IMG/VR virus record: IMGVR_UViG_3300023109_000078
Span: 1-31,540 of that record
Source of the DNA: a virus
DNA: 31,540 nt
Reading direction: 5' to 3' (one strand)
The notes beneath the pieces are model-generated. The model was not told the DNA's origin. It saw only the letters and a list, made by a program, of their open reading frames with translations, and searched no databases. A program made the position numbers and the translations under genes. Positions 2,101-19,844 of this stretch are shown here, one piece after another (the first letter of the stretch is position 1; each line of letters begins with the position of its first letter).

Positions 2101-4908
2101 ATGCCAAAGCTGATACAGACAAGCCTGAGTGGCGGCGAGATATCCCCGGCGGTTGCAGCGCGTGTTGATATATCAAAATACAAAAGCAGCGTGGCGCAGG
2201 CAACTAACATGCTTGTGCGCGTTCACGGTGGCATGTCTAACCGCACTGGTTTTAAGTACGTTGCGCAAGTTAAAGACAGCACCAAAGATGTACGCCTGAT
2301 CCCGTTTGCGTTTAATACAGAGCAAACATATGTGTTGGAGTTTGGCGATTACTATGTGCGCGTAATAAAAGACGGCGGTCAGGTTTTAGAAAGCACCGGA
2401 ATTGACACTGTTAGTGGGGCAACTAAAGCAGACCCGTGCGTAATCACTACAAGCGGCGCACACGGCTTGGCTAGTGGCGATCAAGTGTACATGGCAGGCG
2501 TAGGCGGCATGACCCAATTAAACGGGCGCACGTTTAACATCACTGTGTTAAGCACCACTACGTTTAGCTTGCAGACATTAGATGGCACGGCAGGGACAGA
2601 CATTGACAGTACTAACTATACCACGTTTACCAGCGGTGGCACTGCTAGCAGAATATTTGAGTTAACTACGCCATACTCTGCTAGTGCATTGCGTGACCTT
2701 AAATATGTGCAGTCCGCTGACGTTATGACGTTATGCCACCCAGATTACCCGCCCCAAGAACTCACCCGGACTGACCATGACGCGTGGTCTATAGGGCCGA
2801 TTGTGTTTTACCCAACGCAACCCTTTCCAACTGATCTTGCGGTGACAGTCACTACCACTGGGTCACAGACAACTAAGTACGCGGTCACGGCTGTCAACGC
2901 TGACAGCGATGAAGAAAGCCTGCGCGGCACTAGCGCAACGTTTACAATGACATTTGCTTCGCAAGCCTCTGTTTGCGTGGTCACTACATCTAGCGCACAC
3001 AGTTTAGTTATTGGTGATGAAATAAACATTACTGGCGTGTTAGGCATGACTGAACTAAACGACAGACGTTATCGCGTTGGCACAGTCCCCACTAGTACGA
3101 CGATAACTCTAAACGACACCAGCATGGTCCCGGTTAATAGTTCTGGCTACACACCCTACGACAGCGGCGGCACACTAGGTGTTGCGTTTATTAAAATTAC
3201 TAACGGCGCGTCTGACCAAGACAACATTGTTAGTTGGACCGCTGCAGACGGCGTCAGCCTGTACCATGTGTACCGTGACGATAACGGGCAATTTGGGTTT
3301 ATTGGGTCAACTGAGGTGACCACGTTTACAGATAAAAAGATAGACGCAGAACTCACAGACACCCCGCCCCGTGTGCGTAATCCTTTTCTGCAAGTTAACT
3401 ACTACCCATCCACTGTTGCGTTCTACAATCAGCGCCGGGTGTTTGCTAATTCTAACACCTACCCGCAACGCATCTGGATGACACAGACAGCCAACATTTC
3501 TAACATGGCCACATCTAGCCCGGTGAAAGATGACGATGCCATTATTTTAACAATTGCTAGTATGCAAGTTAATGAAATACGCCACATGATCCCGCTAGCT
3601 GAACTAATCGTTTTGACTAGCGGCGGTGAGTGGGAACTAGCAGGCGCTGGGGGCGCTGCCCTTACCCCGTCTTCTGTCGAGGTTATACCTCAAACGTATT
3701 ACGGTTCTACTGAAGTGCAGCCGCTGGTGTCTGGGGCTAACGTTCTGTTCATTGAGCCGGGGCAAGTTATCCGCGACCTTGGCTACCGATATGAGACAGA
3801 CAGCTACACGGGCAATGACATTTCTATTCTAGCCCGGCATTTGTTTGAGGGCTTTACCATAACCGATTGGGCGTTTGCGCAGGCTCCAGACAGCACCGCG
3901 CACTGTGTGCGCAATGATGGCAGGCTACTGCACCTGACGTATTTAAAAGAACAAGAGATTTTTGGTTGGTCTACTAGCGAAACACGCGGCAACTTCTCAT
4001 CTTGCGCTACTGTTGAAGAAAACAACCAGCACGTTTTGTACGTTATTGTTGAGCGGATCATTGATGGCGCGACAGTAAAATACATAGAACGCCAACAAGA
4101 ACGCACATACACACAGCTAGAAGACGCGTTTTATGTGGACGCTGGGCTGACCTATGACGTTCCTGTCGCAATTAGCGGGTACAGCAAAACAAACCCTGTA
4201 GTAATTACTGCGACTAGTCACGGGCTATCAAATGGTGATACAGTAGATTTATCTGAAATATTGAAGGTGGACACCTCAGTGACCAAAGGCGCGGCTCTAC
4301 AGGACGATTTGAACCTTAACGGGTTTACTGTAGCAAACGTTACGGCCAACACTTTTGAACTGCAAAACAATGGCACTGATGTAAACGGCACTGCTTTTGC
4401 TGCGTACAGTAGCGGCGGCAAAGCTAGAAAAGCGGTCACTACTATTAGTGGCTTGTGGCACTTAGAAGGTCAGCAAGTAACAGGCGCGGCTAACGGGGAC
4501 GTGTTAGACCCGCTTACTGTTTCTAACGGGTCTATAACATTACCTGCTAAAGCTAGCCGCATCCACTTAGGACTGCCCTACACAGCCACAATGAAGACGC
4601 TGCGTCTTAACGTTCCTTCCGGGGACGGTACAACTATACAAGCCAGAGACAAAAAGATATCGCGTTTAACTGTCCGCACTGAAAAGACAATGGGCATGAA
4701 GGTTGGCCCTGATGAAGCCACATTGCGCGAAGTTAAATTTGGCGTGGCAGGCAGGTTTGGCCAGCCCCGCGTTTTATTTAGTGGAGACAAAGACACAACA
4801 TTAAAGCCTGCGTGGGCAAAAGACGGAGAGTTTTTTGTCGTGCAGGATGATCCTATGCCGCTGACCATTTTAAGCGTTATCCCTGACGCAATTGTTGGGG
4901 GGAATTAA
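2101..4908 (+). CDS. Tail nozzle protein (gp12-like) with three E1_FCCH-like modules
   Basis: The 935-residue protein starts MPKLIQTSLSGGEISPAVAARVD and has the typical nozzle opening, including NMLVRVHGGMSNRTGFKYVA (residues 36-55) and a beta-rich segment to residue 90. The later part (VNEIRHMIPLAELIVLTSGGEWEL) also fits podovirus tail nozzle/stabilisation proteins. Three inserted copies of a module of about 70 residues are visible: residues 111-180, 290-357 and 698-773. Each has a VITT-S-AHGL-x-GD core (weaker in the second), an LN/N-x-R/F-x-V middle and ends with a Y/F-x-SGG motif. I recognise them as similar to the E1_FCCH domain that recurs in phage tail proteins. At more than 900 residues it is larger than T7 gp12 (about 800), which the insertions explain. 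The stop overlaps the next start (TAATG). Confidence 0.85.
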   Translation: MPKLIQTSLSGGEISPAVAARVDISKYKSSVAQATNMLVRVHGGMSNRTGFKYVAQVKDSTKDVRLIPFAFNTEQTYVLEFGDYYVRVIKDGGQVLESTGIDTVSGATKADPCVITTSGAHGLASGDQVYMAGVGGMTQLNGRTFNITVLSTTTFSLQTLDGTAGTDIDSTNYTTFTSGGTASRIFELTTPYSASALRDLKYVQSADVMTLCHPDYPPQELTRTDHDAWSIGPIVFYPTQPFPTDLAVTVTTTGSQTTKYAVTAVNADSDEESLRGTSATFTMTFASQASVCVVTTSSAHSLVIGDEINITGVLGMTELNDRRYRVGTVPTSTTITLNDTSMVPVNSSGYTPYDSGGTLGVAFIKITNGASDQDNIVSWTAADGVSLYHVYRDDNGQFGFIGSTEVTTFTDKKIDAELTDTPPRVRNPFLQVNYYPSTVAFYNQRRVFANSNTYPQRIWMTQTANISNMATSSPVKDDDAIILTIASMQVNEIRHMIPLAELIVLTSGGEWELAGAGGAALTPSSVEVIPQTYYGSTEVQPLVSGANVLFIEPGQVIRDLGYRYETDSYTGNDISILARHLFEGFTITDWAFAQAPDSTAHCVRNDGRLLHLTYLKEQEIFGWSTSETRGNFSSCATVEENNQHVLYVIVERIIDGATVKYIERQQERTYTQLEDAFYVDAGLTYDVPVAISGYSKTNPVVITATSHGLSNGDTVDLSEILKVDTSVTKGAALQDDLNLNGFTVANVTANTFELQNNGTDVNGTAFAAYSSGGKARKAVTTISGLWHLEGQQVTGAANGDVLDPLTVSNGSITLPAKASRIHLGLPYTATMKTLRLNVPSGDGTTIQARDKKISRLTVRTEKTMGMKVGPDEATLREVKFGVAGRFGQPRVLFSGDKDTTLKPAWAKDGEFFVVQDDPMPLTILSVIPDAIVGGN

Positions 4909-5369
4909 TGGTGCGCGAAATACGAGACATGCGTGAAGAGGATATCCCGGACATATTGCTTTTACTTGAAGCGATGACAAACGAAGGCGTTTACTACAAT
5001 TATGAATTAAATCATGGGCGCTCTCAGTATGTAATCGAAGCAATACTGGGGCAGGACGGGGTCTTTACACAATGTTTTGTAGTAGACGGCGTTGTCAGAG
5101 GCTTTTTTGCAGGTCAGGTTGTTACACACGAATTTGTGCAATGCCATGTGGCATCTGATCTTGGCTTTTACATTGACCCAGAATACCGCAAAGGTACATG
5201 GGGGATACGCTTAATTAAAAACTTTGAAGCATGGTGTATGTCAGAAGACGTTGAGTGCGACATGATCAGGCTGTCAGTTTTTGCAGGCGTTGCTAATGCG
5301 CGGACAGGCGCTCTGCTATCCACACTACGATACGCAGACGCAGGTACGCTGCATGTGAAGGAGATATAG
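4908..5369 (+). CDS. GNAT-family acetyltransferase-like protein
   Basis: The 153-residue product begins MVREIRDMREEDIPDILLLL, the usual beta1-alpha1 of GNAT enzymes, and has a motif-A-like stretch LGFYIDPEYRKGTWGIRLIKNF (about residues 84-105) where the acetyl-CoA pyrophosphate loop (R-K-G-x-x-G) is expected. GNAT enzymes move an acetyl group from acetyl-CoA to an amine; the substrate here is unknown. Its start overlaps the nozzle-gene stop by one base and it is placed inside the structural block, so it will be made late together with virion proteins. It might modify a virion protein or a host target; that is inference. Confidence 0.72.
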   Translation: MVREIRDMREEDIPDILLLLEAMTNEGVYYNYELNHGRSQYVIEAILGQDGVFTQCFVVDGVVRGFFAGQVVTHEFVQCHVASDLGFYIDPEYRKGTWGIRLIKNFEAWCMSEDVECDMIRLSVFAGVANARTGALLSTLRYADAGTLHVKEI

Positions 5370-5370
5370 C

Positions 5371-5889
5371 ATGTGCATGACCGCACTAGTAATAATGGCC
5401 GCAAGCACAGCAATGTCCGCTTACGGTGCGTATCAACAAAGTAAAGCGCAACAAGCCTCTCTAGATTACCAAGCGCAAGTTAATGCAAACAACGCGACTG
5501 CAGCACGGCAGAACGCGCAGGCGATTAGGGACAGGGCAGATGTTGCGGAAGATGAACACCGCACAAAGATAGCCCGGCAGAAAGGCACAGCTGTTGCTGT
5601 GACCGCATCCCGTGGCGTTTTAGTAGATGACGTGGACAGTTCTATTGATTTTATTTTGCAGGATGCTGCGCAGTACGGCGAGTATGACATAGCAAAAATA
5701 CACGATGACGCGGCGCTACGCGCCCGGCAGGCAGAAATTGAAGGCACAAACTTTGACGCTAAAAGTGCGCTTGCCTCGTTTGAAAGTTCAACAATTAACC
5801 CAACGTTTAACGCGGCCTCTACGCTGTTATCAGGCGCATCTAGTATGGTCGGCCCGGCAACGCAAATGGGTTATATTAAGACGATTTAG
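5371..5889 (+). CDS. Internal virion protein, T7 gp14-like
   Basis: The 172-residue protein starts with a hydrophobic Ala/Met-rich segment (MCMTALVIMAASTAMSAYGAY) followed by a long Gln/Ala/Arg-rich helix with DYQAQVNANNATAARQNAQ, then SRGVLVDDVDSSIDFI. This is the pattern of T7 gp14-like core proteins, which leave the head during DNA ejection and form the outer-membrane part of the channel. AAGGAGATATAGC precedes the ATG at good spacing. It is followed by two much larger proteins, the same order as T7 genes 14, 15 and 16. Confidence 0.82.
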   Translation: MCMTALVIMAASTAMSAYGAYQQSKAQQASLDYQAQVNANNATAARQNAQAIRDRADVAEDEHRTKIARQKGTAVAVTASRGVLVDDVDSSIDFILQDAAQYGEYDIAKIHDDAALRARQAEIEGTNFDAKSALASFESSTINPTFNAASTLLSGASSMVGPATQMGYIKTI

Positions 5890-5898
5890 GAGCGCACT

Positions 5899-8559
5899 AT
5901 GGCAAGAGGACAAGTACCTGCATTTGGTCCGCAAGGCCCGATAGGAAACATACAGCTGCAGACTAACATTGGCGGCGGTTATCTAAACCCCGGACGGCCC
6001 AACGTTGAAAACGTGGGTAAGGGCTTAATGCAGCTGGCAGACGCCGGGTTTAAGATGGGCAAGGCGCTGTCAGACGCAGACATACGCGCATCTAAATTAC
6101 GCGACAAAGCTGCGTTAATTGACGCAGAAACGCTGTGGTCAGAGTTTTCTTTAATGAAAGAGATGGACTACAAAAACAGTGTTAGAGGCTTTGGCGCTAG
6201 TAAGAACTGGGCGCAAGGCAGCATCAACACAAACAAAGACCAGCTGGCGATGTTTCTTGACGGCAACGTCAATTTAAAAGCGCCGCCGGGTACAGATCAA
6301 GCTGCGTGGACCCAACGGCTCAACGATCTTAACGGAGCGTTAAAAACACTGCGTCCAGAAAGTAAAGTGGCGCTGCAACAATTTATTGGCCAGCAAACGA
6401 CTGCGTGGGGCGCAAACGTCACCCGCTATCAAATATCGCAGGCAGAGGCTGCGCTGCAGCAACAACTAAAAATAAAATCGGATCAGGCGGCATTACGTTT
6501 AAAGATGGCTCCACCGTCAGAATTTGGTTCTGCGATGTGGACTTACTTGGACACCATTAACGCAGTTAATCAGGCAGACGGTGTAGTAGGCAGTGCCAGC
6601 GGCGGCGGCACTATTAAATCTGCAAGTGGCGTAAGCAGTAGCGGCGCTAGTGCGGGAGGTGACGCAAGTACGCGTGGCATTATTACTGACACATCCCCTA
6701 AGAACTTGTTCAGCGCACCCAACATGGTGAAAGTAACCGGGTTGTACATTGAGGAGTTTCAAAACAAAATTAACGCGCTGCTTCACAATAATGATTTTGC
6801 TGGGGCAAGGGAGTTTTTAAACACCTACGGTTCCTACAGCCTGTCTAATTCCCACCCGGAAGAAAGCAAAGTAACGGTTCCGCTGTACATTCAAGAGTTT
6901 GTGGAAGCAAAACTAATCGACGCAGAAAAGGCTGGGTATTTTGAAAGCGTTGCTCAACAACAATTTAGTCAGTTTACTGGCCCTACAGCGGAAGAAGACG
7001 CGTTGGCCAGCGCACAGTTGTCTCTAGGGGACACACTGCTAATAGACGATGGCAACGGAAAATGGGTAGAGCAAACTGTGTCGGCTAGTGGCCGCGCTCC
7101 TACAAGGATGACGCAAGCAGATATTGATAACATTAAGACTAGAATAAAACAGAAATATGCCGCACGAAAACGCGAAGACGCTGCCGTGCAAACAGATGAA
7201 CTAAACAGTCTTCTTGATAACTACGAAAACATTACACGGACACACATGCAAAGCAGCGCAGGCGGTGCAGCGCAATACCCGCGCCCGGAGGCTTACCCCG
7301 CGTATGACAAGCTAGACCAGAACAACCAAATGGTGGCGCAAAAACATTGGCAGATGTTAAACAGCGGTGAGATGGGCGCTAAAGGCCCAACGGTAATGAA
7401 TAGCGCCGCGTTGGCTACAAGTTGGGGAGTGTTACCAATACAAGCAAAATCTGCTGTGTCAGCGGGTACTATGATGGATTTAATTAATAACAACATCCCT
7501 GCCAGTATGCCCAACCAACGCGCCGCCTATTGGCGGCAGTGGGGCGAGGTTCAAGTCACTGCCCCCGCTTTACTTGCAGAGGCGCAGTTAAAAGCAGCGT
7601 TGGGGAAAGAAAAAGTGCAATTAGATATTTTTTCTGAAACAATTTCTAGCGCCAGCGCCCATTTTACAAATAAAAAAGAGGCGGCAGTCGAGGCTATTAG
7701 AAACAGCTACCTTGACGCTATGGGGAGTGGAGAACACGCAACAAAACGCTCTAATATGGCTGTATCGTTGTTTTCCGCTCTAGTAGACAGCGAGTACGCA
7801 GAGCGCGTGGCCAGAGGCCCGTCAGGCAGCTTAACGATGGATAACGCTGACGTTGATGCGCTAATTGCGGCGGCACGGCGTAAGTTCGACACTAGTTTAA
7901 CTGCAGATCAAGGCGGTGTTTTCGGCCTCTTCCAAGATTTTGGTTCTTTGGGAGAGGGGCAATACGGTATATCTCAGCTGGTCGCGCCCATTGATGACCA
8001 AGGTGTTGTATCCATGACCGCTGAAGACAGAAAGACAATTAAGGCTGCGCAGATCACTGCTTTTGGAGATTGGCGGGGACCGGGGTCATACGGTGTGCAG
8101 GCAGTTACTCCACCAAGTTCTTACTTTGAGGTTGCGTCCCTGTACGCACAGACGGCACAAACAACTGGTGTCACTACACAGAAGGCTAGTATTGAAGGCC
8201 TGCAGTTATTTACAAACAACATGCACAGTTGGGTGGAAACTCAGGTGGCAAACAACAGCCCCATTGCCACATACTTTGAACGCGCCCAGCCGGGCAGTTT
8301 TAATAACCAGCCCGACCATGTGAAACGTAAATATATTTACAAGGTTATAAACGCTACTGTCGCGCCTACTAGTGCAGAGCGAACACGGTACGTTGCTCCT
8401 ACAGGGCAGATGCTGTCTGCGAATGTTGTAGGCCAGCAAGCCATGCCTATAAGTACGCTGTCCCGTTATGGGCCGTCTTTACTGGCTCCTACGCAAAGTG
8501 GGGTGCAGTCTGCGCAGCAATACATATTTAACGCAGCAAAAGGGTGGGTTGCGCAATGA
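5899..8559 (+). CDS. Large internal virion protein (gp15-like position)
   Basis: The product has 886 residues and is mostly alpha-helical and Gln/Ala-rich. It starts MARGQVPAFGPQGPIG, then GGGYLNPGRPNVENVGKGLM, the kind of N-terminus seen in podovirus core proteins. A Ser/Gly linker at about residues 233-257 (GSASGGGTIKSASG and neighbours) separates two helical parts. There is no catalytic motif that I recognise. By order (after the gp14-like gene, before the giant gene) it takes the place of T7 gp15, a component of the ejected channel. An AGGAG site lies before the ATG. The stop overlaps the start of the giant gene (ATGA), implying coupled translation. Confidence 0.7.
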   Translation: MARGQVPAFGPQGPIGNIQLQTNIGGGYLNPGRPNVENVGKGLMQLADAGFKMGKALSDADIRASKLRDKAALIDAETLWSEFSLMKEMDYKNSVRGFGASKNWAQGSINTNKDQLAMFLDGNVNLKAPPGTDQAAWTQRLNDLNGALKTLRPESKVALQQFIGQQTTAWGANVTRYQISQAEAALQQQLKIKSDQAALRLKMAPPSEFGSAMWTYLDTINAVNQADGVVGSASGGGTIKSASGVSSSGASAGGDASTRGIITDTSPKNLFSAPNMVKVTGLYIEEFQNKINALLHNNDFAGAREFLNTYGSYSLSNSHPEESKVTVPLYIQEFVEAKLIDAEKAGYFESVAQQQFSQFTGPTAEEDALASAQLSLGDTLLIDDGNGKWVEQTVSASGRAPTRMTQADIDNIKTRIKQKYAARKREDAAVQTDELNSLLDNYENITRTHMQSSAGGAAQYPRPEAYPAYDKLDQNNQMVAQKHWQMLNSGEMGAKGPTVMNSAALATSWGVLPIQAKSAVSAGTMMDLINNNIPASMPNQRAAYWRQWGEVQVTAPALLAEAQLKAALGKEKVQLDIFSETISSASAHFTNKKEAAVEAIRNSYLDAMGSGEHATKRSNMAVSLFSALVDSEYAERVARGPSGSLTMDNADVDALIAAARRKFDTSLTADQGGVFGLFQDFGSLGEGQYGISQLVAPIDDQGVVSMTAEDRKTIKAAQITAFGDWRGPGSYGVQAVTPPSSYFEVASLYAQTAQTTGVTTQKASIEGLQLFTNNMHSWVETQVANNSPIATYFERAQPGSFNNQPDHVKRKYIYKVINATVAPTSAERTRYVAPTGQMLSANVVGQQAMPISTLSRYGPSLLAPTQSGVQSAQQYIFNAAKGWVAQ

Positions 8560-11500
8560 GCGAATTATCTGGTTCACAACTGGCCGCTGGCATTCTTCAA
8601 GACGAAGAAGAAAACGTTGCATCCCCACGCCCCGGTGTGCTGCCGTTTATGCAGCCTGTTGTTAACGGCAACCATGACGCTACTGGCAGGGAACTAGGTG
8701 TCGTACCACCTGTTGCAGACACGGCTATCACGGACATATTAGATGCTGACGAAGGCGATTTAAACACAAAAATTGCGCTTAACTTTGTGAATGCAGAGAT
8801 GGAAACATCTGACATTTCCCCAGAGATTAGAGAGAAATTAACTACTGAGATTTTACAACGTCCCGGCATGGAATTTTTTGCGCGGAACAACGGCGAGGTG
8901 CAGGCGCAGGTTCAAGAGGAATTTGCCCTACGCCTGTTTGAACAGAACAAGAAATGGCTAGATGACAACCCGCGTTTAAAATCATTCTTTGCTGACCCAG
9001 TAAACAACAAGCTGTCTCAGCGAGATTTAGCTGACGGCAGGATGCAGCGGTTTATCAGGAACGTAGAGTTAATTTCTAAAAAGAACAAAGCTACGGGCTG
9101 GTGGGCCAAGAACTTTGAAAACTTCTGGCAAGAGCAAGGCATACTTTTTAAGGAAGCAGGCCGGGGAATTATAGCGGCAGGCGGGAAGCTACTGTACGTA
9201 TCTGGGCAAGCGCAGATGCGCGCTAATGAAGCGCAGCTTCTGGGTACGCAGGCGATGGTTGGTAAAGTCACTGGCGATAGCAGCCGAGAGATTGAAGAGA
9301 CATTAAACGAAACAGCAATTCGCACCCAGCGTCCATGGATTAAATCTATTTTAACTGAGGACGAACTGACAGAGTATGACGCAGCGGACGGTACTACTGT
9401 AGAAGGACAGACCAAGCAAAGTGAACTGTACTTAAAAGCCCTAGAGGCCAGCAAGATACAGGTCTTTGAAGACGTGCAAGAGTTTACCGACGATATGTGG
9501 GGCGGCAGGGAAAACGATAAACGCGATTTGCGTATCCTAAAAGCCCGGTTACCAGACGGTGGTTTTGCGTACTGGGTCCGCACCATAGAAGGTGCAGTTG
9601 TTCAAATGGCTCCTACGGTTGCCGCCGGGCTATTGTCTGGTGGTAGTTTAGCCGCACCTAGCGCGGTGACGTTCCTGCAAGTGTTTGGTCGCACTTACGA
9701 CACAGCGTCCCACAGAGAGGGATGGACGCACGAACAGGCGCTTGGTGAGGCTACTTTTAAAGCGGCTGTTGAAATGGTTAGTGAGCGGCTTTTGCCGCTG
9801 CGCTATTTATTTCCTAAGAAAGCAGGCGGCGCTGTAGCAGACGCGGCGCAGCAAAGTGCAGTGGCTACGTTCTTAAAAGTGGGCGTTGCTGAAGGCGCAC
9901 AAGAGATGTTTGTGGAAGCCGTAGACATTGCATACGCTAACGGGATTTTAGATGAAAACATTGGGTTTGAAGAAGGCGTCCAAAGACTAATTGAAGCTGG
10001 CATTATTGGCTTTGCCGTTGGTGGGCAGATGAAGTTGACCGTGTCTGGCGTAAACATGGTAAAGGACAAAGCGTTTGGTAAGCAATCGCAGGATTACTTA
10101 GACACGCTGCAGGCCGTAAATGAGGCGGCAAACAATCTTGACCTGATGACCACTGCACCAACAGCGGTGCAAGAACTGGTGGATGAAGCGTTAGCTGACC
10201 CAGAAGCGGACGGCACAGTACTAGTAGACGCGCAGAAGCTGCTTGATCTACATCAAGACACTGTGCAGACGCAGGCGTGGCAAGACAGCGTTCCTGTAGA
10301 CGCAATGTCATCTCCCGTGGCAGAGGCGTTAGGCGTTAACTTTGAAGAGATAAAGGCAACCGCATTAGAGGGCGGCGAGGTTGTTATTAAAACATCCAAG
10401 CTAGTCACGTTGTCACCAGAACAATTTAAAACGTTATCGTTAGACATTCGCGAAAGCATTGGTTCGTATACGGTGCGCGAACACGAAGCTGCACTAGTTC
10501 AACAGGCAGACGATGTTGCTGCCGTTACAGCTGCCCTGCAGGAAAACCAAGCCGCTATGGAAAGCGAGGCCGCGCCCGGCGCAGCCATCTATGACCTAGT
10601 CCAACAACAGGCAATTGACAGCGGAGTGTCAGCTATTGAGGCAGACACCAGAGGTCAGCTGATCCAAGAGTTTTACGTTACCCAATCTGCGTTGTTAAAA
10701 AACCCAGACGGTAGCATGGTTAGCCCGGAGCAATTGTTTGCTGAACAGAACGTTACCCTGCAAGCGCCGGGTGGTCCGACTGTTTCATCAACTGACCTTG
10801 CTCCCCCGGCAACAGAGGCGCTGGCGTCTGTAGACACGGACGCACCTTCACCGCCAGAGGCTTTGGTACTGTCACCAGACATGCTAGTGCCGCCACCTGT
10901 AATTGCTGTACCAGACGCAGCTGCGCCGTCAGCTGACCCAGAAATTAACACGCAGATATCGGCCAACGCTGTAGCGCCTGACGTGGGTACACTCCCAGAA
11001 GTGGGGACAGCCCCGGCGCTTCCTGTAACACCTGACCCGTTAGAAGCGGCCCCGACAGTAGAGACAGCCGCTGTAGCCCCAGAGGCGGTCACAGAGGCCG
11101 CTACAGAAGCTACTGCAGTTGACCCCGCTGCAGACGTTGCTGCGCCTGTAGCACCTGTTGCAGAGCGGCCTGCAGGAGAACTGCCGTCTATTAACGATTT
11201 GACTGACAAAATTAAGGCAGGGTTTTTAGAACAGAGCGCACCACAGCCGCCACTGACTACAGAACAGACGCTGGAACTGGAGCAATCGCAAGCAGTGATT
11301 GAAGGCCAGCAAGGCAGTATGTCTACACAGATTGCCACTACTGCAACCGCATACCCTAAAGTGGTGGCGCGGGTAGAAAGCCAGTTTTTAGAACGCCCGG
11401 TCACTACAATTTTAGATTATGGTTCCGGGCTAGGCTTTGGTACGCAGTTGATGCGCGAAGAAGGCCGGGACGTTGAAAGCTACGAACCCAACCCTGACCG

Positions 11501-14500
11501 CGCCATTGCTGCAGGCAACGTACCTACATATTCAGACAGCACCAAGGTCACTAAAAAATATGATTTAGTGATGAACCTAAACGTGTTGAACGTTCTGGAA
11601 CCCAAGCTGCGTGATGTAGTTCTGGCAGATATTATTTCTAAGATAGATGACGGCGGCGCAGCTGTGATCGGCACACGCGGTTGGACCGGGGACATTGCCA
11701 CTGCAAAGAATGTGGACATGGCTGTTGAAGACAAAGCCGTGTGGGTAAATAAAAAAGACAAGAAGGTTTACCAAAAAGGCTGGGACGGCAACGAACTTTT
11801 AGACTACATCACTGCGCGGTTGCCCATAGGTTACACGGCAGTAAAGATATCTGGTGTCGGCAAACGCGGCGTACTGATCAGAAAGAACGCCCCGGAAGAC
11901 AGCGGCGTCACAATGATGCCACTAAACCAAGACACGATTGATGTTAACGAAACGGTGGAAGAAACGCAGGAGCGCATTGTTTCTCAGGTTACAGGCCGCG
12001 ATGGTAAAGTCATTACCGTAACTGAAACACAAGATTTACAAAACAAATTAGTCGATAGCAAAGTAGTGCCGCGTATTAAATCTTTGCAGGAACTGTTAGA
12101 CAAGACGGGCGAAATTACAATCATCCCAACAATTGCTGACAGGACCGCCGCTGGTACGAATTTCTATGGCGCGGACGGCCAACAGTACATGGGCATCCCT
12201 GCGTTAGGTGGGCCGTTCTTCCCACTGACAATGCAGAACATTGCAGGCGGGTTTATTTGGGCTGACCGGGGCGCTGGCGTTGAGGCTGCAAAACGCGACA
12301 AGACTATGAAGAAAGGCGTGACCCATATGCTGGTCACCCTTGGCACAAACAACATGCACCAATCGAACACTACAGTAACGCAAGTGTACGTCCAAGATTT
12401 GGCCATGAAGTTACAGTCTGACCTAAGACCCGGAACTAATAACCCCAACCCGATCACTAAAGAAAAACTAGCAGAGGTGATGCAGTTTTTTGAGAACATG
12501 GAGTTTAAGGGTAACCCGGACAGTAAAAGCTACGCCAAAACCAAAGTGGTTATGGAAGAAGTTATGTCTTTTGCAAATGTGGGTTTTGACAGTTTGTCTG
12601 ACGGCACTGGTGGAGCCAAGCTAAACCAATGGCTGCAGAACCTGAGTTTTGACGCCCGGAAGATTTGGCTAGACAAAATGGGGTCTAAGGAAATCGCTGG
12701 CAAGCTGGGCATCGACATGCAAAAGATTTTGGACACTACCCGTGAACCTACGTTAAACACGCAAGGTTTAGGCGCGGGTGTGGTCCTACTAGAAATAGAC
12801 ACGGCGTCTTGGGCTAAAGGCTCCCAACCAATACAGCACCCTGATTTTCCCAGCGCCATGATGGGTAAGGTAGTTGGGGTATTTGATACGCCTATATCGT
12901 GGGAGTTGTTGTGGCAAGATCACGTTGCCGCTGAGAAGGCGGCAGAGATTGCTAAGACAGGCGCACCGCGTAAAGGTCCGCAAGAGTACCGGGCGTGGAC
13001 ACTGAAAGCGCCGCCTGTAACGCTGACGCAAGACTTGGTGGACCGCATAGGTGACCACAACGCGCCGGGTATTGATGGTGAAATGCAGGCGCGTATGGTC
13101 ATGTCTATGATCGACACTAGGGCTACCAATAAGCACTGGGGGGATGCCAACGTTGGCAACGGCGGCGTTAAGCCGATTGACTACGCAGACGCTGTAGAGC
13201 GCGTCAGGGCTAGCCAAGAAGGCATGGCGCAAAAGCCGGGGTCGCTAGAAGCTACCCAAGAGACATACACTAAGAAAGACGGCACAGAAGGAACCCGCTC
13301 TATCAAAGGCACTGGTTTTAACGCCAAGTTAAAAATGGGCCGGGAAGGAAAAGTTGGCGGTCTGCTTTTGAGCCAGTTAGGAAAAACGCAAGCGTGGTCC
13401 CTGATCGAAATAACTCCGCGCGGCAAAAAGATTGTCAGCCTGTTTAACCTAGAACAGAACACACAGGGTATTGCAGAGACAGGTTTAATACTAGACGCAC
13501 TTGATCAGGGAGCAACATTATCAGTTGCTGATCCTAGAAATCCAGTGTATAATCTACTTATTGATTTTGGTTTTGCGCCGAACTCATACGGCGAACTAGA
13601 ATTTAACGGAGAGGTACAAGCAAATGGCGAAACCTACACAGAAAGATATTTTAGATACGGCTTTGAAGGCATACAGAATGGAAGAGTTGACCCAGATGTC
13701 GCGGCAATCACTGAACGGATTGTTGACGATAGTGCGCAACCAGCTAGTAGCGAACAGGCAGTTAAGCAATACGGATATGACCCGCTTGCGAAGCCGTTTC
13801 GAGAAGGTACACTCCAATCCCGCGCTAGGGAGATTGCGCTCACCATTGCAAAACTCCCAGACAACGCCCTCCGCAACTTAAAACTACCGCTGCAAGCACG
13901 GGCGTCAGTGTCGAGGATTATATCCAACCCGCTGCCGCTGTATCAAGAAGAAGCACCTAAGATACCCGCGAAAGAAATTGAAGCTAGGCTGACGGCCACT
14001 ACACTGCCGTCTGACGCTGACGTGCTTGGTATGTTGGGCGGGTTTCCAAATTACCTAAACGCTGTGGCTTCGTTCATGGGAACGCAGCGCCAGAAACTAG
14101 TGCAAGGCAAGATGACGCCACGGGATGTGGCCAAGGCATACGCCATCACTGTTGGATCACAAGGCGCAGGCGCAATGAAGGTGTCAACTTTCCTTGCCAA
14201 GACCGGGTTCCAACCGTCACCTGATTTTGTAGAACGCGGCATGATCCGACCAGAAGAAGCTATGGCCATGTGGTTTGGTACGCCTAATGGGCAGGCTGCG
14301 TTAGACGCAGTGTCTAAAGGCAACACTGACCCGGCGCTGTGGCAGGAACTGATTGAATGGCGCAAGGCATGGGGCGATGACCGCCTTGGCAACATGGGGT
14401 TGTTAAGTGACAAAGGTATTGCTTTGCTGCCAGACGTTGTTGCTAATTTAAACGAACTAGGCAAACGCGCTGGCCGGGGCCAGAGCGTTGCTGATGACAT

Positions 14501-17500
14501 AAACACTGAACTGCAGCGGCTGGGCGGTATCGCAGCTGCTAAAGGGCCGTTCATCTCGCATCTGCTAGGCATGGGCGAAACGGTCACTATGGACGCAGTA
14601 GAGATTAATTTTTGGCTGACAGGCAAGGCAGACGTTAGTCGGTTAAAGGCAGAAGAAAAAGCATTGGCGCAGGCAGTAGCCAAAAGTGCAAAAGGTAAAA
14701 TACTATTGCGCGACATGGTGATGGCAAGGTTGGAAAACCTACGCGCCACTGGACAGGTTAAAGTACCACCGGGCATGGACCCCAAAGCGTACATGCATGT
14801 GATGCACCATTGGCTGTGGGATCGTGCCAAAGGCATAGAGACAACCCACACTGGGTTGTACAAGGGCATGACTATGTACCAGCCTGCAGAGGTAAACCTG
14901 TTACCTGAGAACAAGCTGGAAAAAGTAGACAAGCAGTATGGCGTTGGCAAAAAGATGGGCAACGAAACCTACCTGCACAAATCTGCAATGGATGTGCTGC
15001 CAGCGGATGTGCAGGCGCGTATAGCAGAGGCTGAACTGCCGCCGGGACACGAATGGGCAATTGTTAAGTACAACAAGAAAACGGGCCAGATATCGCTGAT
15101 CGAAAGCTACGATTGGGACACCTCGCACGAACCTACTGTGGGTAACAGTTTAATTTTAAAACCTGACGGCACAGTTAAATTACACAAAGCGCCAGTAGAA
15201 GACGCCAACAAAACAATCTACCACCACAAGTGGTTGTTTGTACGTCCCGGCTACACCGGGTTTAATTACGTTGAAAGCAGGCTGCGTTCACGCACATGGC
15301 AGGCATTAGGTAACCTCGACAGTAGACGTTACGGGCGCAAAGGTTTCTGGCAGGAAAACGTTCTGCCCCGGCTAGAGCCAAACTATTTAACCCAGACTGA
15401 CACTGGCCCGGTTGGTCCGCGTGGCAGGTTCTTCCAAGAAAAAGACGTGTACGGCAACGTGTCTAATATTATTGAAATGACCAAAAACGCCGACAAGTCA
15501 ACGTTCCTACATGAGGCCGGGCATTTCTTTTTGTTCCAGCAAAAGCAAATGCTGGAAGACAGCCGTCTTACAGAAGATGGCCGCAAGCAGCTAAACGCGG
15601 ACGCGCAGACCACTACAGAATGGTTCCGCAAAAACGCAGATCAGGTCTGGCAGGAAATGCAGGACATGATGCACAGCACACGCAAAGCGGCTGACGCTGA
15701 CCCATCGAACTTTGCCAAGCAGGAACGCGCTGACCGCATAGAGGCCGCTGTCGTTTACGCAAACGACCACGGTGGTGTGATGTACATGCGCGACATTGCC
15801 GACAACTTTATGAACGGCAAAATGAACTACGGCACAGAATTAGAAATAGGTTTCCACGAACTGTGGGCGCGGGGAACAGAAAAATACTTTTCTAACGGTG
15901 AAGCCCCGACACCTAAACTACGCAAGCTGTTTGAGAACTACAGCGCATGGTTAACTAAGATTTACCGTAACCTGTCCCGCCTTAACGTCAACATCGACCC
16001 AGAAATCACACAAGTGTTTAGCCGACTAGTCGCAATAGATGACGCGCTCACTGACGCAACTGAGAGCGCAACTTACACTGTGCCACCCGAATTGACTGCG
16101 CTGGCGTCAGAGGCCGAGACAGAGGCGCTAAACGATTTAGCAACTGACGCGCAAAACGAAGCGCGGGAGCAAGTAAAAGCAAAGGTACAGAAGGAAATTA
16201 AACGCGAACAGGCAAAGACGCGTAAAGAGGCCGAGGCAAAAATAAAAGAGCGGGTCACGGCAGAGGTGCAGGCCCGTCCTGTTTACGCTGCCATTAATAT
16301 GCTGCGCCGGGGCATACTGCCTGACGGCACAAAATCAGATAAGAATTTAAAATTGAACTACGCCGAATTTAAAAAGCGGTATGGTTTGGAAACCATGCGC
16401 AGAATAACTGCAGCTGCGCCGGGGCTGTTTACAAACAAACGCGCAAAAGACGGCACAGTTCCAGAAGACGTGGCATCTAGTTTAGGGTTTGAAGGTCCAG
16501 ACCAAATGGTAGCCGCACTCGCAGCTGGCAATTATCCTAAACAGGCTGACGCTATCCGGGATGAAACAACAGCGGCAATCAACAATGAACTAGGCGAAAT
16601 ATTAAGTGACGAACAGATCACTGAGATGGCAGACGAAGCTGTCAACAACGACAAGCAGCTAGACGTGCTAGCAGCGCAGGCCAGAATATTGCGCCGGGTA
16701 ATTGCTCAGAACGCCCGTAAACAGACAGACCGTAAAGCTACAGACTACGGCGTGACCAGCACAGCACGGCAAGACATTGCCGCTGCTAAAGCGGCCAAGG
16801 CTACAGAGACAGCTGCCGTGACAGAGGACACTACACAAGCTGACGCAGCGGACGCCACAATAGGCACAGTCACAGCGGAGCAACAGCGGCAGTCTAACGT
16901 AGGGCAGCGCAGGGCGCAGAGAAAAGCGTCTGTCAAATTAAGTGAGATATTGCGCAACGTCAGCCTGCCTGCAATTAAAGCAGCGGCTGTGGATCACATT
17001 AGTAAGCTGCCATTGAACAGGATACACGCCGGGAAGTACCGCACCACGGCAGAGCGCATAACTAAGAAGTACGCAAGGGCGCTAGTTAAACGCGATTATG
17101 TAGAGGCAGAGGGTCTGCTTAATTTAATTATCTTAAACACCGCAATGTCTAAAGAAGCGGCGCGGGTGCAGGGGGTTATTTCAAAAGACGTAAAATCGCT
17201 ACAGGAATTTGGCAACCGCACTGATAAAAAGCTGGCTACTAGCTACGATGTTGATGTTGTAAACGTTATGAGGGCAATGCTGCACACTGTCGGCATTGGC
17301 AAAGCTAACAGCAAAAACATGGCTCCCGGCCAAGCGTTATCTGTGCTGCAGGACACTGATCAAGAACTTGACGAAAATCTGACCGCTGTCGCTGCGCAAG
17401 TCGCAGACATTGAAGTAGCCCTGCGCAACATGCAGCAAGACGGCAATATGCCGACATACAAAGACATGTCTGTTATAGACATTCAATCGCTGCTTGAAAT

Positions 17501-19844
17501 TGCCACAGAACTTAAAAAGATGGCCAGAGAGCGCGTACAGTTAACCGTAGAAGGCCGCGAGGTTAACATTGACGAGGTAGCTGATGAAATTGCATCAGGC
17601 ACAGTAGATTTAGTCCGGGAACGCAAAAAGAAAAAAGGTGTTCCAATTGCCAATCGCGGTACGCAATCTCAGCGGGGACGCCAAACGTTCTGGCAGAGTT
17701 TTCGATCCTCTCTTCTGACCACAGAACTGTGGGCGCGGTTTGCAGATAACAACAACGCAGACGGTCCTATCACTAGCAACATTGTACGCCCGGTGATGAA
17801 GGCGATTACAAACTACAACATCAACCGCGCTGTGCCGCTTAAAAAATTAGTCGATATGCTGCGCGGTCAGGCGTCCCCGTTAAACGTAAAGATAAATGTC
17901 ACGGCGTCAGAGTTTACAGACGCTGAAGGCAACCCGTGGTCATTCCTCACAAAAGGCGAGATTATCCACGCGCTGCTCCACACTGGTAACGCCAGCAACT
18001 TCCGCAAGCTGTTGCTGGGCGGTCAGAAAGCTGATGGCGTTTCATATATGTTTGGCAAGGAAAACCCAGACGGCACACTAGACACCAGCAAGTGGGACGC
18101 GTTTATCATGCGGATGGTAAATGACGGCGTCCTGACGCAAGCAGATTTTCAGCTAGTGCAAGAAATTTGGGATTTGTTTGAACAAACCAAAGGCCCGGCG
18201 CAGGCGGCACACAAAGAACTGTACGGGTACTATTTCCCAGAAGTGCCTGCCGAGCCTGTATCGACCCCGTTTGGCGTCTTACGAGGCGGCTATGTCCCTG
18301 CTATAACTGATAGGTCAATGAACACTGACGCAGCAAAACAAGCTGCGCAAGATGACGTGTCTCAGATGCGCAGCAACACGATGTTCCCGGCTGCAGAAAG
18401 AGGGTTCACTAAACAACGTGTCGAATACAACGAACCGTTAGATTTAGATTTGGCCGGGTTACCCCAGCATCTAGATAAGGTGATGAAGTTTTCGTACATT
18501 AACCCGGCGGTGCAGACGGCGTCACGGTTCTTACGCAATAAAAAGATTAGAGCGGCGCTAAGTCAAATTGAACCGATGGTAATTGAAAACACCATCATTC
18601 CATTTTTAAGCCGTGCCGTCAGACAGGAAACTACCGACCCGCAAGGTAGCGGAAACCTCAAGCCGTTTGACCGGGCGGCAACGTGGCTGAACCAAGCTGT
18701 CGGCATGAACACAATGACATTAAATATTGTCAACACGCTGCAGCAATCAACAGGGTTGGTGACGGCGTCTTTACTGGTTAGCCCACTGAAACTATCCCAC
18801 GCTGCCGTCAGGTTTAGACAGGATGGCCAAGGGTTAAAATCATATGTGGCGTCACGCAGCCCGTTCATGCAAGTGCGTATGCAAGACAGCGTCAACGACA
18901 TGATGCAAGGTATTGAAGAAACATTACGCGCTACCAGCCCCCTCAAAAAGCTGCAGGGTAAGGCTAGCAAGTACGCGTATATCACGCAGCAAATTATGCA
19001 GAACTTTGTCGATCCAATTGTCTGGTCCGCTGCCGAAAGCCAAGCCCGGACAAACGGCATATACGAAAAAGTGTACAACGCGAACCTATCACGGGGCCGT
19101 GACGTGGCGCTAGCTGCAGCTGAAGACGCTGTGGCGCAGTATGCTGACCGTGTGGTGCGCGACACGCAATCCCCTATGGGTGCGCAGGACATATCTAAGT
19201 TTGAAGCTGGCGGCGCTATTATGCGGCTGTTCACTAAGTTCTATCGTTACTTTAACAACATGTACAATCTGAACCGCACAGAGTGGAAACTGAACGCCCG
19301 GCGCATTGGCTGGAAAGGCAAGCCTACCCGTGCATTCTACATCTACATGATCGGCTTTGCGATGCCTGCTATAATTGCAGAGGGTATCGTGATGATGGCT
19401 AAAGGTAGGTTCGATGACGATGAGGAAGAACTAGACACACTGATGTTTGACCTGTTGTTTATGTCACAAGCTAAAATGGCTACAGCGATGGTCCCTGTAC
19501 TAGGATTGCCTGTAACCGCTGGTCTGGGGCTGCTAACAGATCAGACCTACGATGACAAAATGAGCCTGTCCCCAGTGATTAGTATTGCAGAGGGTTACGG
19601 CATGAACTTCTTGAAGTCAGCTGTTGCAAGAGTAACAGGCGAAATTGACACCGATGAAGAAGAAGTACGGGAAGTAAAAGCGTATCTTAAAATGCTGGGC
19701 CTAGTGTTGAAACTGCCGACCAACTGGTTTGCAAAAGGTGTTGAATACCAGATGAAAACTGACCGTGGCATAGTTGCAGGACGTGACACGTCCGACATAA
19801 TATCTGGATATTTGTTTGGCAGAGATAAGACGGAGAACAGATGA
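8556..19844 (+). CDS. Giant polyvalent internal virion protein with methyltransferase-like and zincin-like domains
   Basis: This 3762-residue product takes 36% of the window. I place the start at ATG 8556, which forms an ATGA overlap with the previous stop; an in-frame GTG at 8544 is less likely. Visible regions: helical N-terminus with hydrophobic segments (about 345-490); a Pro/Ala/Thr/Glu-rich linker (about 745-875); a class I SAM methyltransferase-like domain (about 925-1115) with motif I LDYGSGLGFG at 953-962; an uncharacterised middle region; an HEAGH zincin motif at 2319-2323, followed by FHELWARGTEKYF that could give the third ligand; a Lys/Glu/Ala-rich coiled coil (about 2525-2570); and hydrophobic segments near the C-terminus (about 3594-3665). 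Position matches T7 gp16. Enzyme-bearing polyvalent proteins of this type are thought to be injected with the DNA; DarB of P1 is a known example. No transglycosylase motif was found. Confidence 0.85.
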   Translation: MSELSGSQLAAGILQDEEENVASPRPGVLPFMQPVVNGNHDATGRELGVVPPVADTAITDILDADEGDLNTKIALNFVNAEMETSDISPEIREKLTTEILQRPGMEFFARNNGEVQAQVQEEFALRLFEQNKKWLDDNPRLKSFFADPVNNKLSQRDLADGRMQRFIRNVELISKKNKATGWWAKNFENFWQEQGILFKEAGRGIIAAGGKLLYVSGQAQMRANEAQLLGTQAMVGKVTGDSSREIEETLNETAIRTQRPWIKSILTEDELTEYDAADGTTVEGQTKQSELYLKALEASKIQVFEDVQEFTDDMWGGRENDKRDLRILKARLPDGGFAYWVRTIEGAVVQMAPTVAAGLLSGGSLAAPSAVTFLQVFGRTYDTASHREGWTHEQALGEATFKAAVEMVSERLLPLRYLFPKKAGGAVADAAQQSAVATFLKVGVAEGAQEMFVEAVDIAYANGILDENIGFEEGVQRLIEAGIIGFAVGGQMKLTVSGVNMVKDKAFGKQSQDYLDTLQAVNEAANNLDLMTTAPTAVQELVDEALADPEADGTVLVDAQKLLDLHQDTVQTQAWQDSVPVDAMSSPVAEALGVNFEEIKATALEGGEVVIKTSKLVTLSPEQFKTLSLDIRESIGSYTVREHEAALVQQADDVAAVTAALQENQAAMESEAAPGAAIYDLVQQQAIDSGVSAIEADTRGQLIQEFYVTQSALLKNPDGSMVSPEQLFAEQNVTLQAPGGPTVSSTDLAPPATEALASVDTDAPSPPEALVLSPDMLVPPPVIAVPDAAAPSADPEINTQISANAVAPDVGTLPEVGTAPALPVTPDPLEAAPTVETAAVAPEAVTEAATEATAVDPAADVAAPVAPVAERPAGELPSINDLTDKIKAGFLEQSAPQPPLTTEQTLELEQSQAVIEGQQGSMSTQIATTATAYPKVVARVESQFLERPVTTILDYGSGLGFGTQLMREEGRDVESYEPNPDRAIAAGNVPTYSDSTKVTKKYDLVMNLNVLNVLEPKLRDVVLADIISKIDDGGAAVIGTRGWTGDIATAKNVDMAVEDKAVWVNKKDKKVYQKGWDGNELLDYITARLPIGYTAVKISGVGKRGVLIRKNAPEDSGVTMMPLNQDTIDVNETVEETQERIVSQVTGRDGKVITVTETQDLQNKLVDSKVVPRIKSLQELLDKTGEITIIPTIADRTAAGTNFYGADGQQYMGIPALGGPFFPLTMQNIAGGFIWADRGAGVEAAKRDKTMKKGVTHMLVTLGTNNMHQSNTTVTQVYVQDLAMKLQSDLRPGTNNPNPITKEKLAEVMQFFENMEFKGNPDSKSYAKTKVVMEEVMSFANVGFDSLSDGTGGAKLNQWLQNLSFDARKIWLDKMGSKEIAGKLGIDMQKILDTTREPTLNTQGLGAGVVLLEIDTASWAKGSQPIQHPDFPSAMMGKVVGVFDTPISWELLWQDHVAAEKAAEIAKTGAPRKGPQEYRAWTLKAPPVTLTQDLVDRIGDHNAPGIDGEMQARMVMSMIDTRATNKHWGDANVGNGGVKPIDYADAVERVRASQEGMAQKPGSLEATQETYTKKDGTEGTRSIKGTGFNAKLKMGREGKVGGLLLSQLGKTQAWSLIEITPRGKKIVSLFNLEQNTQGIAETGLILDALDQGATLSVADPRNPVYNLLIDFGFAPNSYGELEFNGEVQANGETYTERYFRYGFEGIQNGRVDPDVAAITERIVDDSAQPASSEQAVKQYGYDPLAKPFREGTLQSRAREIALTIAKLPDNALRNLKLPLQARASVSRIISNPLPLYQEEAPKIPAKEIEARLTATTLPSDADVLGMLGGFPNYLNAVASFMGTQRQKLVQGKMTPRDVAKAYAITVGSQGAGAMKVSTFLAKTGFQPSPDFVERGMIRPEEAMAMWFGTPNGQAALDAVSKGNTDPALWQELIEWRKAWGDDRLGNMGLLSDKGIALLPDVVANLNELGKRAGRGQSVADDINTELQRLGGIAAAKGPFISHLLGMGETVTMDAVEINFWLTGKADVSRLKAEEKALAQAVAKSAKGKILLRDMVMARLENLRATGQVKVPPGMDPKAYMHVMHHWLWDRAKGIETTHTGLYKGMTMYQPAEVNLLPENKLEKVDKQYGVGKKMGNETYLHKSAMDVLPADVQARIAEAELPPGHEWAIVKYNKKTGQISLIESYDWDTSHEPTVGNSLILKPDGTVKLHKAPVEDANKTIYHHKWLFVRPGYTGFNYVESRLRSRTWQALGNLDSRRYGRKGFWQENVLPRLEPNYLTQTDTGPVGPRGRFFQEKDVYGNVSNIIEMTKNADKSTFLHEAGHFFLFQQKQMLEDSRLTEDGRKQLNADAQTTTEWFRKNADQVWQEMQDMMHSTRKAADADPSNFAKQERADRIEAAVVYANDHGGVMYMRDIADNFMNGKMNYGTELEIGFHELWARGTEKYFSNGEAPTPKLRKLFENYSAWLTKIYRNLSRLNVNIDPEITQVFSRLVAIDDALTDATESATYTVPPELTALASEAETEALNDLATDAQNEAREQVKAKVQKEIKREQAKTRKEAEAKIKERVTAEVQARPVYAAINMLRRGILPDGTKSDKNLKLNYAEFKKRYGLETMRRITAAAPGLFTNKRAKDGTVPEDVASSLGFEGPDQMVAALAAGNYPKQADAIRDETTAAINNELGEILSDEQITEMADEAVNNDKQLDVLAAQARILRRVIAQNARKQTDRKATDYGVTSTARQDIAAAKAAKATETAAVTEDTTQADAADATIGTVTAEQQRQSNVGQRRAQRKASVKLSEILRNVSLPAIKAAAVDHISKLPLNRIHAGKYRTTAERITKKYARALVKRDYVEAEGLLNLIILNTAMSKEAARVQGVISKDVKSLQEFGNRTDKKLATSYDVDVVNVMRAMLHTVGIGKANSKNMAPGQALSVLQDTDQELDENLTAVAAQVADIEVALRNMQQDGNMPTYKDMSVIDIQSLLEIATELKKMARERVQLTVEGREVNIDEVADEIASGTVDLVRERKKKKGVPIANRGTQSQRGRQTFWQSFRSSLLTTELWARFADNNNADGPITSNIVRPVMKAITNYNINRAVPLKKLVDMLRGQASPLNVKINVTASEFTDAEGNPWSFLTKGEIIHALLHTGNASNFRKLLLGGQKADGVSYMFGKENPDGTLDTSKWDAFIMRMVNDGVLTQADFQLVQEIWDLFEQTKGPAQAAHKELYGYYFPEVPAEPVSTPFGVLRGGYVPAITDRSMNTDAAKQAAQDDVSQMRSNTMFPAAERGFTKQRVEYNEPLDLDLAGLPQHLDKVMKFSYINPAVQTASRFLRNKKIRAALSQIEPMVIENTIIPFLSRAVRQETTDPQGSGNLKPFDRAATWLNQAVGMNTMTLNIVNTLQQSTGLVTASLLVSPLKLSHAAVRFRQDGQGLKSYVASRSPFMQVRMQDSVNDMMQGIEETLRATSPLKKLQGKASKYAYITQQIMQNFVDPIVWSAAESQARTNGIYEKVYNANLSRGRDVALAAAEDAVAQYADRVVRDTQSPMGAQDISKFEAGGAIMRLFTKFYRYFNNMYNLNRTEWKLNARRIGWKGKPTRAFYIYMIGFAMPAIIAEGIVMMAKGRFDDDEEELDTLMFDLLFMSQAKMATAMVPVLGLPVTAGLGLLTDQTYDDKMSLSPVISIAEGYGMNFLKSAVARVTGEIDTDEEEVREVKAYLKMLGLVLKLPTNWFAKGVEYQMKTDRGIVAGRDTSDIISGYLFGRDKTENR

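Follow-up and report, generated by a model that had tools for sequence, protein, structure and literature searches.

The window analysed here, a 31,540-base stretch of DNA from a virus record, carries one open reading frame of 3762 amino acids plus stop (8556–19844, plus strand), which runs without internal stop over 35.8% of its length, as an earlier note made from the sequence alone had stated in describing a single 3762-residue gene on 36% of the window. The ATG of this giant gene shares bases with the stop codon of the gene before it (ATGA at 8556–8559). A second contig (L001) contains the whole giant as an intact copy of 3768 aa with 83% identity, and the dN/dS of 0.10 between both copies over the full gene indicates purifying selection. 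We therefore consider the length of the giant to be real and selected.

Upstream of the giant, genes for a major capsid protein (GP7), Bbp16, a tail adaptor and a nozzle with FCCH domains were found, and nozzle and giant are separated by a GNAT acetyltransferase, a T7 gp14-like internal virion protein (5371–5889, plus strand; Pfam PF24072, E 4.2e-7; phrog_418) and a protein of 886 aa (5899–8559, plus strand). Two fibre-type proteins follow downstream. The placement of the giant in the position of T7 gene 16, put forward in the earlier note, is borne out by the gene two places upstream, which matches Pfam T7_gp14. The order of nozzle, gp14-like gene, lysozyme-slot gene, giant and fibre is the same in BPP-1 and other podoviruses, in which annotations as lysozyme, lysis protein or transglycosylase are frequent for the gene preceding the giant. 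The 886-aa protein occupies this slot (that of gp15 or Bbp11). Family searches with it gave the L001 homologue as the sole match, and no transglycosylase, lysozyme or murein hydrolase was detected in it; the phage may have other ways of breaching the wall. The GNAT acetyltransferase gene lies at 4908–5369 of the window; phages AF and Ab9 have a gene annotated as 'internal virion protein' in this slot. One of the fibre-type proteins (20844–22853) displays RCC1-like repeats after a short N-terminal fibre/carbohydrate-module region.

The giant is no singular oddity, as it belongs to a known family with many members. Its assignment to the giant virion proteins resembling Bbp10 of phage BPP-1 is well supported by sequence comparison: BLAST and HMM searches matched Bbp10 (2052 aa) and proteins of DC33, AF, Carin1, Ab9, Jess A, CP2 and others, the C-terminal 960 residues match PHROG 9880 (phrog_9880) with an E-value of 1.4e-218, and a scan with a 13-member alignment confirmed relatives on at least 495 IMG/VR contigs. 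With annotated relatives of 2039–3209 aa and a further one of 3847 aa or more, the window giant is located at the long end of the family. From 93 relatives compared for the HExxH motif and 64 complete ones compared for lengths, a fixed and a variable part could be told apart. The complete relatives have 1210–1451 aa behind HExxH (CV 5%) and 208–2321 aa ahead of it (CV 34%). The family core consequently consists of the HExxH peptidase domain, present in all 93 relatives, and about 900–1000 C-terminal residues. In the window giant, this C-terminal core comprises residues 2801–3762 (16956–19841, plus strand), as delineated by phrog_9880 and the matches to Bbp10-like giants, and accounts for most of residues 2580–3580, which had been left unnamed and are thus resolvable. 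It is preceded by a charged helical or coiled-coil and low-complexity region (residues 2561–2800; 16236–16955, plus strand), apparent from sequence and structure model. The coiled coil and the low-complexity linkers of the earlier note were both recovered, the former as long helices near 2519–2573 and the latter at 741–883, 2491–2580 and 2723–2788. Hydrophobic segments, which had been suggested for both termini, are found within the C-terminal core (3593–3615 and 3641–3661); the N terminus has none that is strongly hydrophobic, with no 19-residue Kyte-Doolittle window reaching 1.6.

The peptidase domain is of the zincin type (residues 2271–2560; 15366–16235, plus strand), and the zincin motif noticed before is HEAGH at residue 2319 (15510–15524). 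In the 13-member alignment, the invariant HExxH is followed by a near-invariant H and an invariant E (residues 2434–2435). Strands of a zincin fold were not seen in the structure model of the giant, so that the assignment rests on this conservation together with the earlier literature, in which a zincin was noted in Bbp10 in 2013 (PMC3650047). Polyvalent proteins have been predicted to be injected and processed by their zincins, with the cutting of host proteins put forward as an alternative (PMC5512222). Following the latter proposal, the zincin of the giant would be an effector with no role in self-processing. We regard this as unlikely, since the domain belongs to the constant core of 93 of 93 relatives, whatever cargo they carry, which is more in keeping with a housekeeping function, for example processing, than with an arms-race effector.

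At the other end of the protein, residues of about 347–751 (9594–10808, plus strand) form a family-conserved N-terminal region, which hhalign aligned to the N-termini of 52 relatives (probability 99, E 4.8e-18). Residues 170–560 additionally match part of a separate open reading frame in another contig (L018), E 1.1e-13, where the gene that includes this N-terminal part (L018:7185–9461) resides directly upstream of a short giant; this split arrangement suggests gene fission or fusion. In the N-terminal halves of relatives, catalogued domains are frequent, with LPD22 in 49 and ART-PolyVal in 22 of 63, and PBECR, GNAT, kinase and transglycosylase (SLT) domains occur as well. LPD22 itself gave no Pfam match in the N-terminus of the window giant, and profile comparison outside the shared region reached a probability of 1.4 only. 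The conserved region is followed by a Pro/Ala-rich low-complexity linker, recognised by its composition (residues 741–883; 10776–11204, plus strand). As sequence comparison shows, the family-wide core, composed of the N-terminal region (~347–751), the zincin (~2271–2560) and the tail of ~1000 residues, flanks or carries exchangeable cargo, which in the window giant consists of four modules in the order MT-X-Y-Z. Between the window and L001, all four display a dN/dS of 0.05–0.08, and their conservation exceeds that of the N-terminal region.

Module MT (residues 882–1112; 11199–11891, plus strand) resembles a class I SAM methyltransferase and contains the motif LDYGSGLG. The methyltransferase-like domain claimed earlier is confirmed by matches to Pfam Methyltransf_23 (946–1040; E 7.6e-4, under the curated cut-off) and to a PHROG methyltransferase (950–1067). 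MT is 95% identical to its counterpart in L001 (dN/dS 0.08) and 46% identical to that in a further contig (L015). Its dS against L001 is 0.37, compared to 1.12 for the whole gene, and this low value fits a recent exchange by recombination. Module Z (residues 2111–2270; 14886–15365, plus strand), identified by profile matches and tblastn, is a domain in common with TIGR04096, the DNA phosphorothioation-associated putative methyltransferase. It matches the last third of this model with E-values of 2.8e-4 and 6.4e-7, at 20–22 bits and thus far under the curated cut-off of 150 bits. By tblastn, Z aligns to plasmid proteins with the same annotation, whose full-length members feature Z, then a methyltransferase domain and sometimes a second Z. 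The two parts of TIGR04096 correspond to Z, in the window as well as in phage relatives, and to MT of phage relatives; one MT of the phage set matches the methyltransferase part. Z is found alone and, often, adjoining MT-like domains, and a second scan for Z gave 17 open reading frames with the order MT-Z and two with Z-MT, some of them near-identical. Since MT and Z both map to parts of TIGR04096 and are paired in bacterial and phage proteins, it is probable that they are partners in the window giant, though X and Y separate them there. The window protein shares with TIGR04096 the Z domain, an MT domain with a similar NLxxxNV(I/L)E motif and the pairing of Z with MT; it differs in its match below cut-off, in the splitting of MT and Z by X and Y and in being a protein of a virion slot. 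A Z-MT protein of 341 aa, annotated as hypothetical (WP_258667853), is encoded on a Vibrio parahaemolyticus plasmid record (L276:4956–5981) and constitutes a compact model for the MT-Z pair.

The earlier note could name no domain in residues of about 1120–2300. This stretch could be resolved into the three mobile modules X, Y and Z, of which X has no recognised fold. Structure prediction with fold searches, the check proposed for it, gave for Y a best meaningful match to MjOgg at an E-value of only 0.43 and for X matches with E > 1 only. Module X (residues 1122–1790; 11919–13925, plus strand) belongs to no recognised family, and its structure model is of medium confidence (pLDDT 69), with no PDB match by Foldseek at E of 1 or below. 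A weak resemblance of its second half to the GNAT fold was noticed, as many of the Foldseek matches were GNAT-type; with E > 1 throughout and a profile test no better than controls, we do not claim this assignment. X was not found in plasmids. Matches in a viral fold library were for the most part to phage proteins that are themselves uncharacterised. Sequence searches of the PDB, performed with the whole giant and with profiles of the core, MT, X, Y and Z, returned nothing convincing.

Module Y (residues 1800–2110; 13953–14885, plus strand) is all-helical in a high-confidence model (pLDDT mostly above 90). Its best meaningful PDB fold match is the MjOgg 8-oxoguanine glycosylase (probability 0.84), and endonuclease III appears further down the list. 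The motif LxGIgxaKxxF...T.DA places a hairpin (LGGIAAAK) and an Asp at HhH-GPD spacing, with an invariant Lys one residue off; the spacing of endonuclease III served as the reference. The Asp, module residue 214 or protein residue 2013, is invariant in 35 of 35 sequences. In hhalign comparisons, Y reached an E-value of 0.0018 against Ogg proteins and 0.0012 against the best single Ogg, with the hairpin in register, while the best of 60 unrelated control open reading frames reached 0.027. We propose that Y is a remote HhH-GPD DNA-glycosylase-like domain, a lead which is of moderate strength only, because the sequence HMMs of HhH-GPD and Ogg (PF00730, PF22175) find nothing, with a single member at E 0.33. 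These blank HMMs, together with the shift of the invariant Lys from the catalytic position, would also be expected if Y were a helical DNA-binding domain with an HhH-like hairpin by chance and no glycosylase activity. We consider this a serious alternative at somewhat less than even odds, as the hhalign values in comparison to the controls, the register of the hairpin, the named fold match and the invariant Asp speak for a glycosylase-like domain.

At least 91 IMG/VR contigs encode Y, which lies close to the N terminus of phage proteins of 770–950 aa, inside other giants or beside the same core; one Y protein has at its end the InPase domain known from polyvalent proteins. In cellular genomes, a search by exact short patterns located Y at one locus, on a 3.5-kb MAG contig. 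The order of the modules is not fixed. L015 carries X (866–1459), then MT (1459–1667) and then ART-PolyVal, the reverse of the MT-X order in the window, and in L115 and others X comes after Y wherever both are seen, likewise the reverse of the window order. Because X, Y, Z and MT recur in other phage proteins and in other orders, they are exchangeable units. X, Y and Z are not matched by the Pfam models of published polyvalent domains.

We propose, at a probability of roughly 70%, that the giant is the third ejection-type protein of a BPP-1-like podovirus, in the slot of T7 gene 16, and that it is polyvalent and carries injected cargo acting on DNA. The family of Bbp10-like giants and the concept of polyvalent proteins are already known; new are the anatomy of the unnamed half and three recurrent modules which are unmatched by Pfam and permuted between proteins, among them Z with its link to DNA-sulfur-associated methyltransferases and Y with its possible glycosylase fold. 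Compared to Bbp10 and its relatives in DC33, AF, Carin1, Jess A and CP2 (PHROG 9880), zincin and C-terminal core are homologous and the giant sits in the same slot after the nozzle, gp14-like and lysozyme-slot genes, whereas the N-terminal cargo differs and the 886-aa neighbour has no detectable transglycosylase. With polyvalent proteins (Iyer et al. 2017, PMC5512222), the giant shares disparate domains and a zincin in one chain among virion genes, and its relatives carry named PolyVal/LPD domains; no catalogued domain of the LPD, ART or PBECR type was matched by Pfam in the window protein itself. The tool-kit delivered with the DNA, as the earlier note envisaged it, is the best reading and agrees with this concept; packaging, ejection and cutting of the giant, and the targets of its cargo, we infer. 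Packing of the giant in the virion and its passage into the cell along with the DNA would be tasks of the core, and cutting of the chain by the zincin, during packaging or after entry, would free the cargo. MT with Z might then modify DNA or another host target, and Y might act on DNA bases as an HhH-GPD-type glycosylase or as a DNA-binding domain. Together, these activities would amount to counter-defence early in infection or to host take-over, in the simplest case protection of the phage genome or disabling of a defence. More specifically, the cargo could be an injected DNA-editing kit, in which MT-Z and the mostly virus-specific, HhH-GPD-type Y are freed by the zincin and work on entering phage DNA or host DNA in the first minutes of infection. 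We put this forward tentatively and hold it to be doubtful; part of this reading is that the modules are traded and reordered among otherwise unrelated giant phage proteins.

It would be conceivable that the giant, like T7 gp16, has a largely structural role in DNA ejection, with its helical body as conduit and the cargo as decaying, inactive passengers. Gene position, the gp14-like neighbour, the long helical regions and the hydrophobic C-terminal segments are all in agreement with such a role. However, the low dN/dS of the cargo modules and motif residues that are invariant across otherwise unrelated proteins are at odds with decay, and beyond the shared gene position downstream of a gp14-like gene neither sequence homology to gp16 nor a transglycosylase was found in the giant. 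We therefore judge this explanation improbable. The comparison gives a nameless giant a testable anatomy, in which exchangeable cargo is joined to a constant core for delivery and peptidase activity. The recurring modules are candidate agents of early counter-defence, and the core, being fixed, offers a handle on how very large proteins traverse a short tail.

Membership in the groups of T7 gp16, P1 DarB or N4 RNA polymerase was considered and had no supporting match, and ART, SNF2 helicase and RNA polymerase were not found in the giant. It resembles DarB of P1 and the DarB-like proteins of Bcep22-like phages as a giant protein with a methyltransferase, but differs from P1 DarB, with its dyad of methylase and SNF2 helicase, in that no helicase family was matched and no homology to the core was detected. 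For a Bbp10-type giant, no virion proteomics was found in the literature searched; in virions, mass spectrometry did detect a different giant podovirus protein, the DarB-like JC1 gp69 (PMC9144972).
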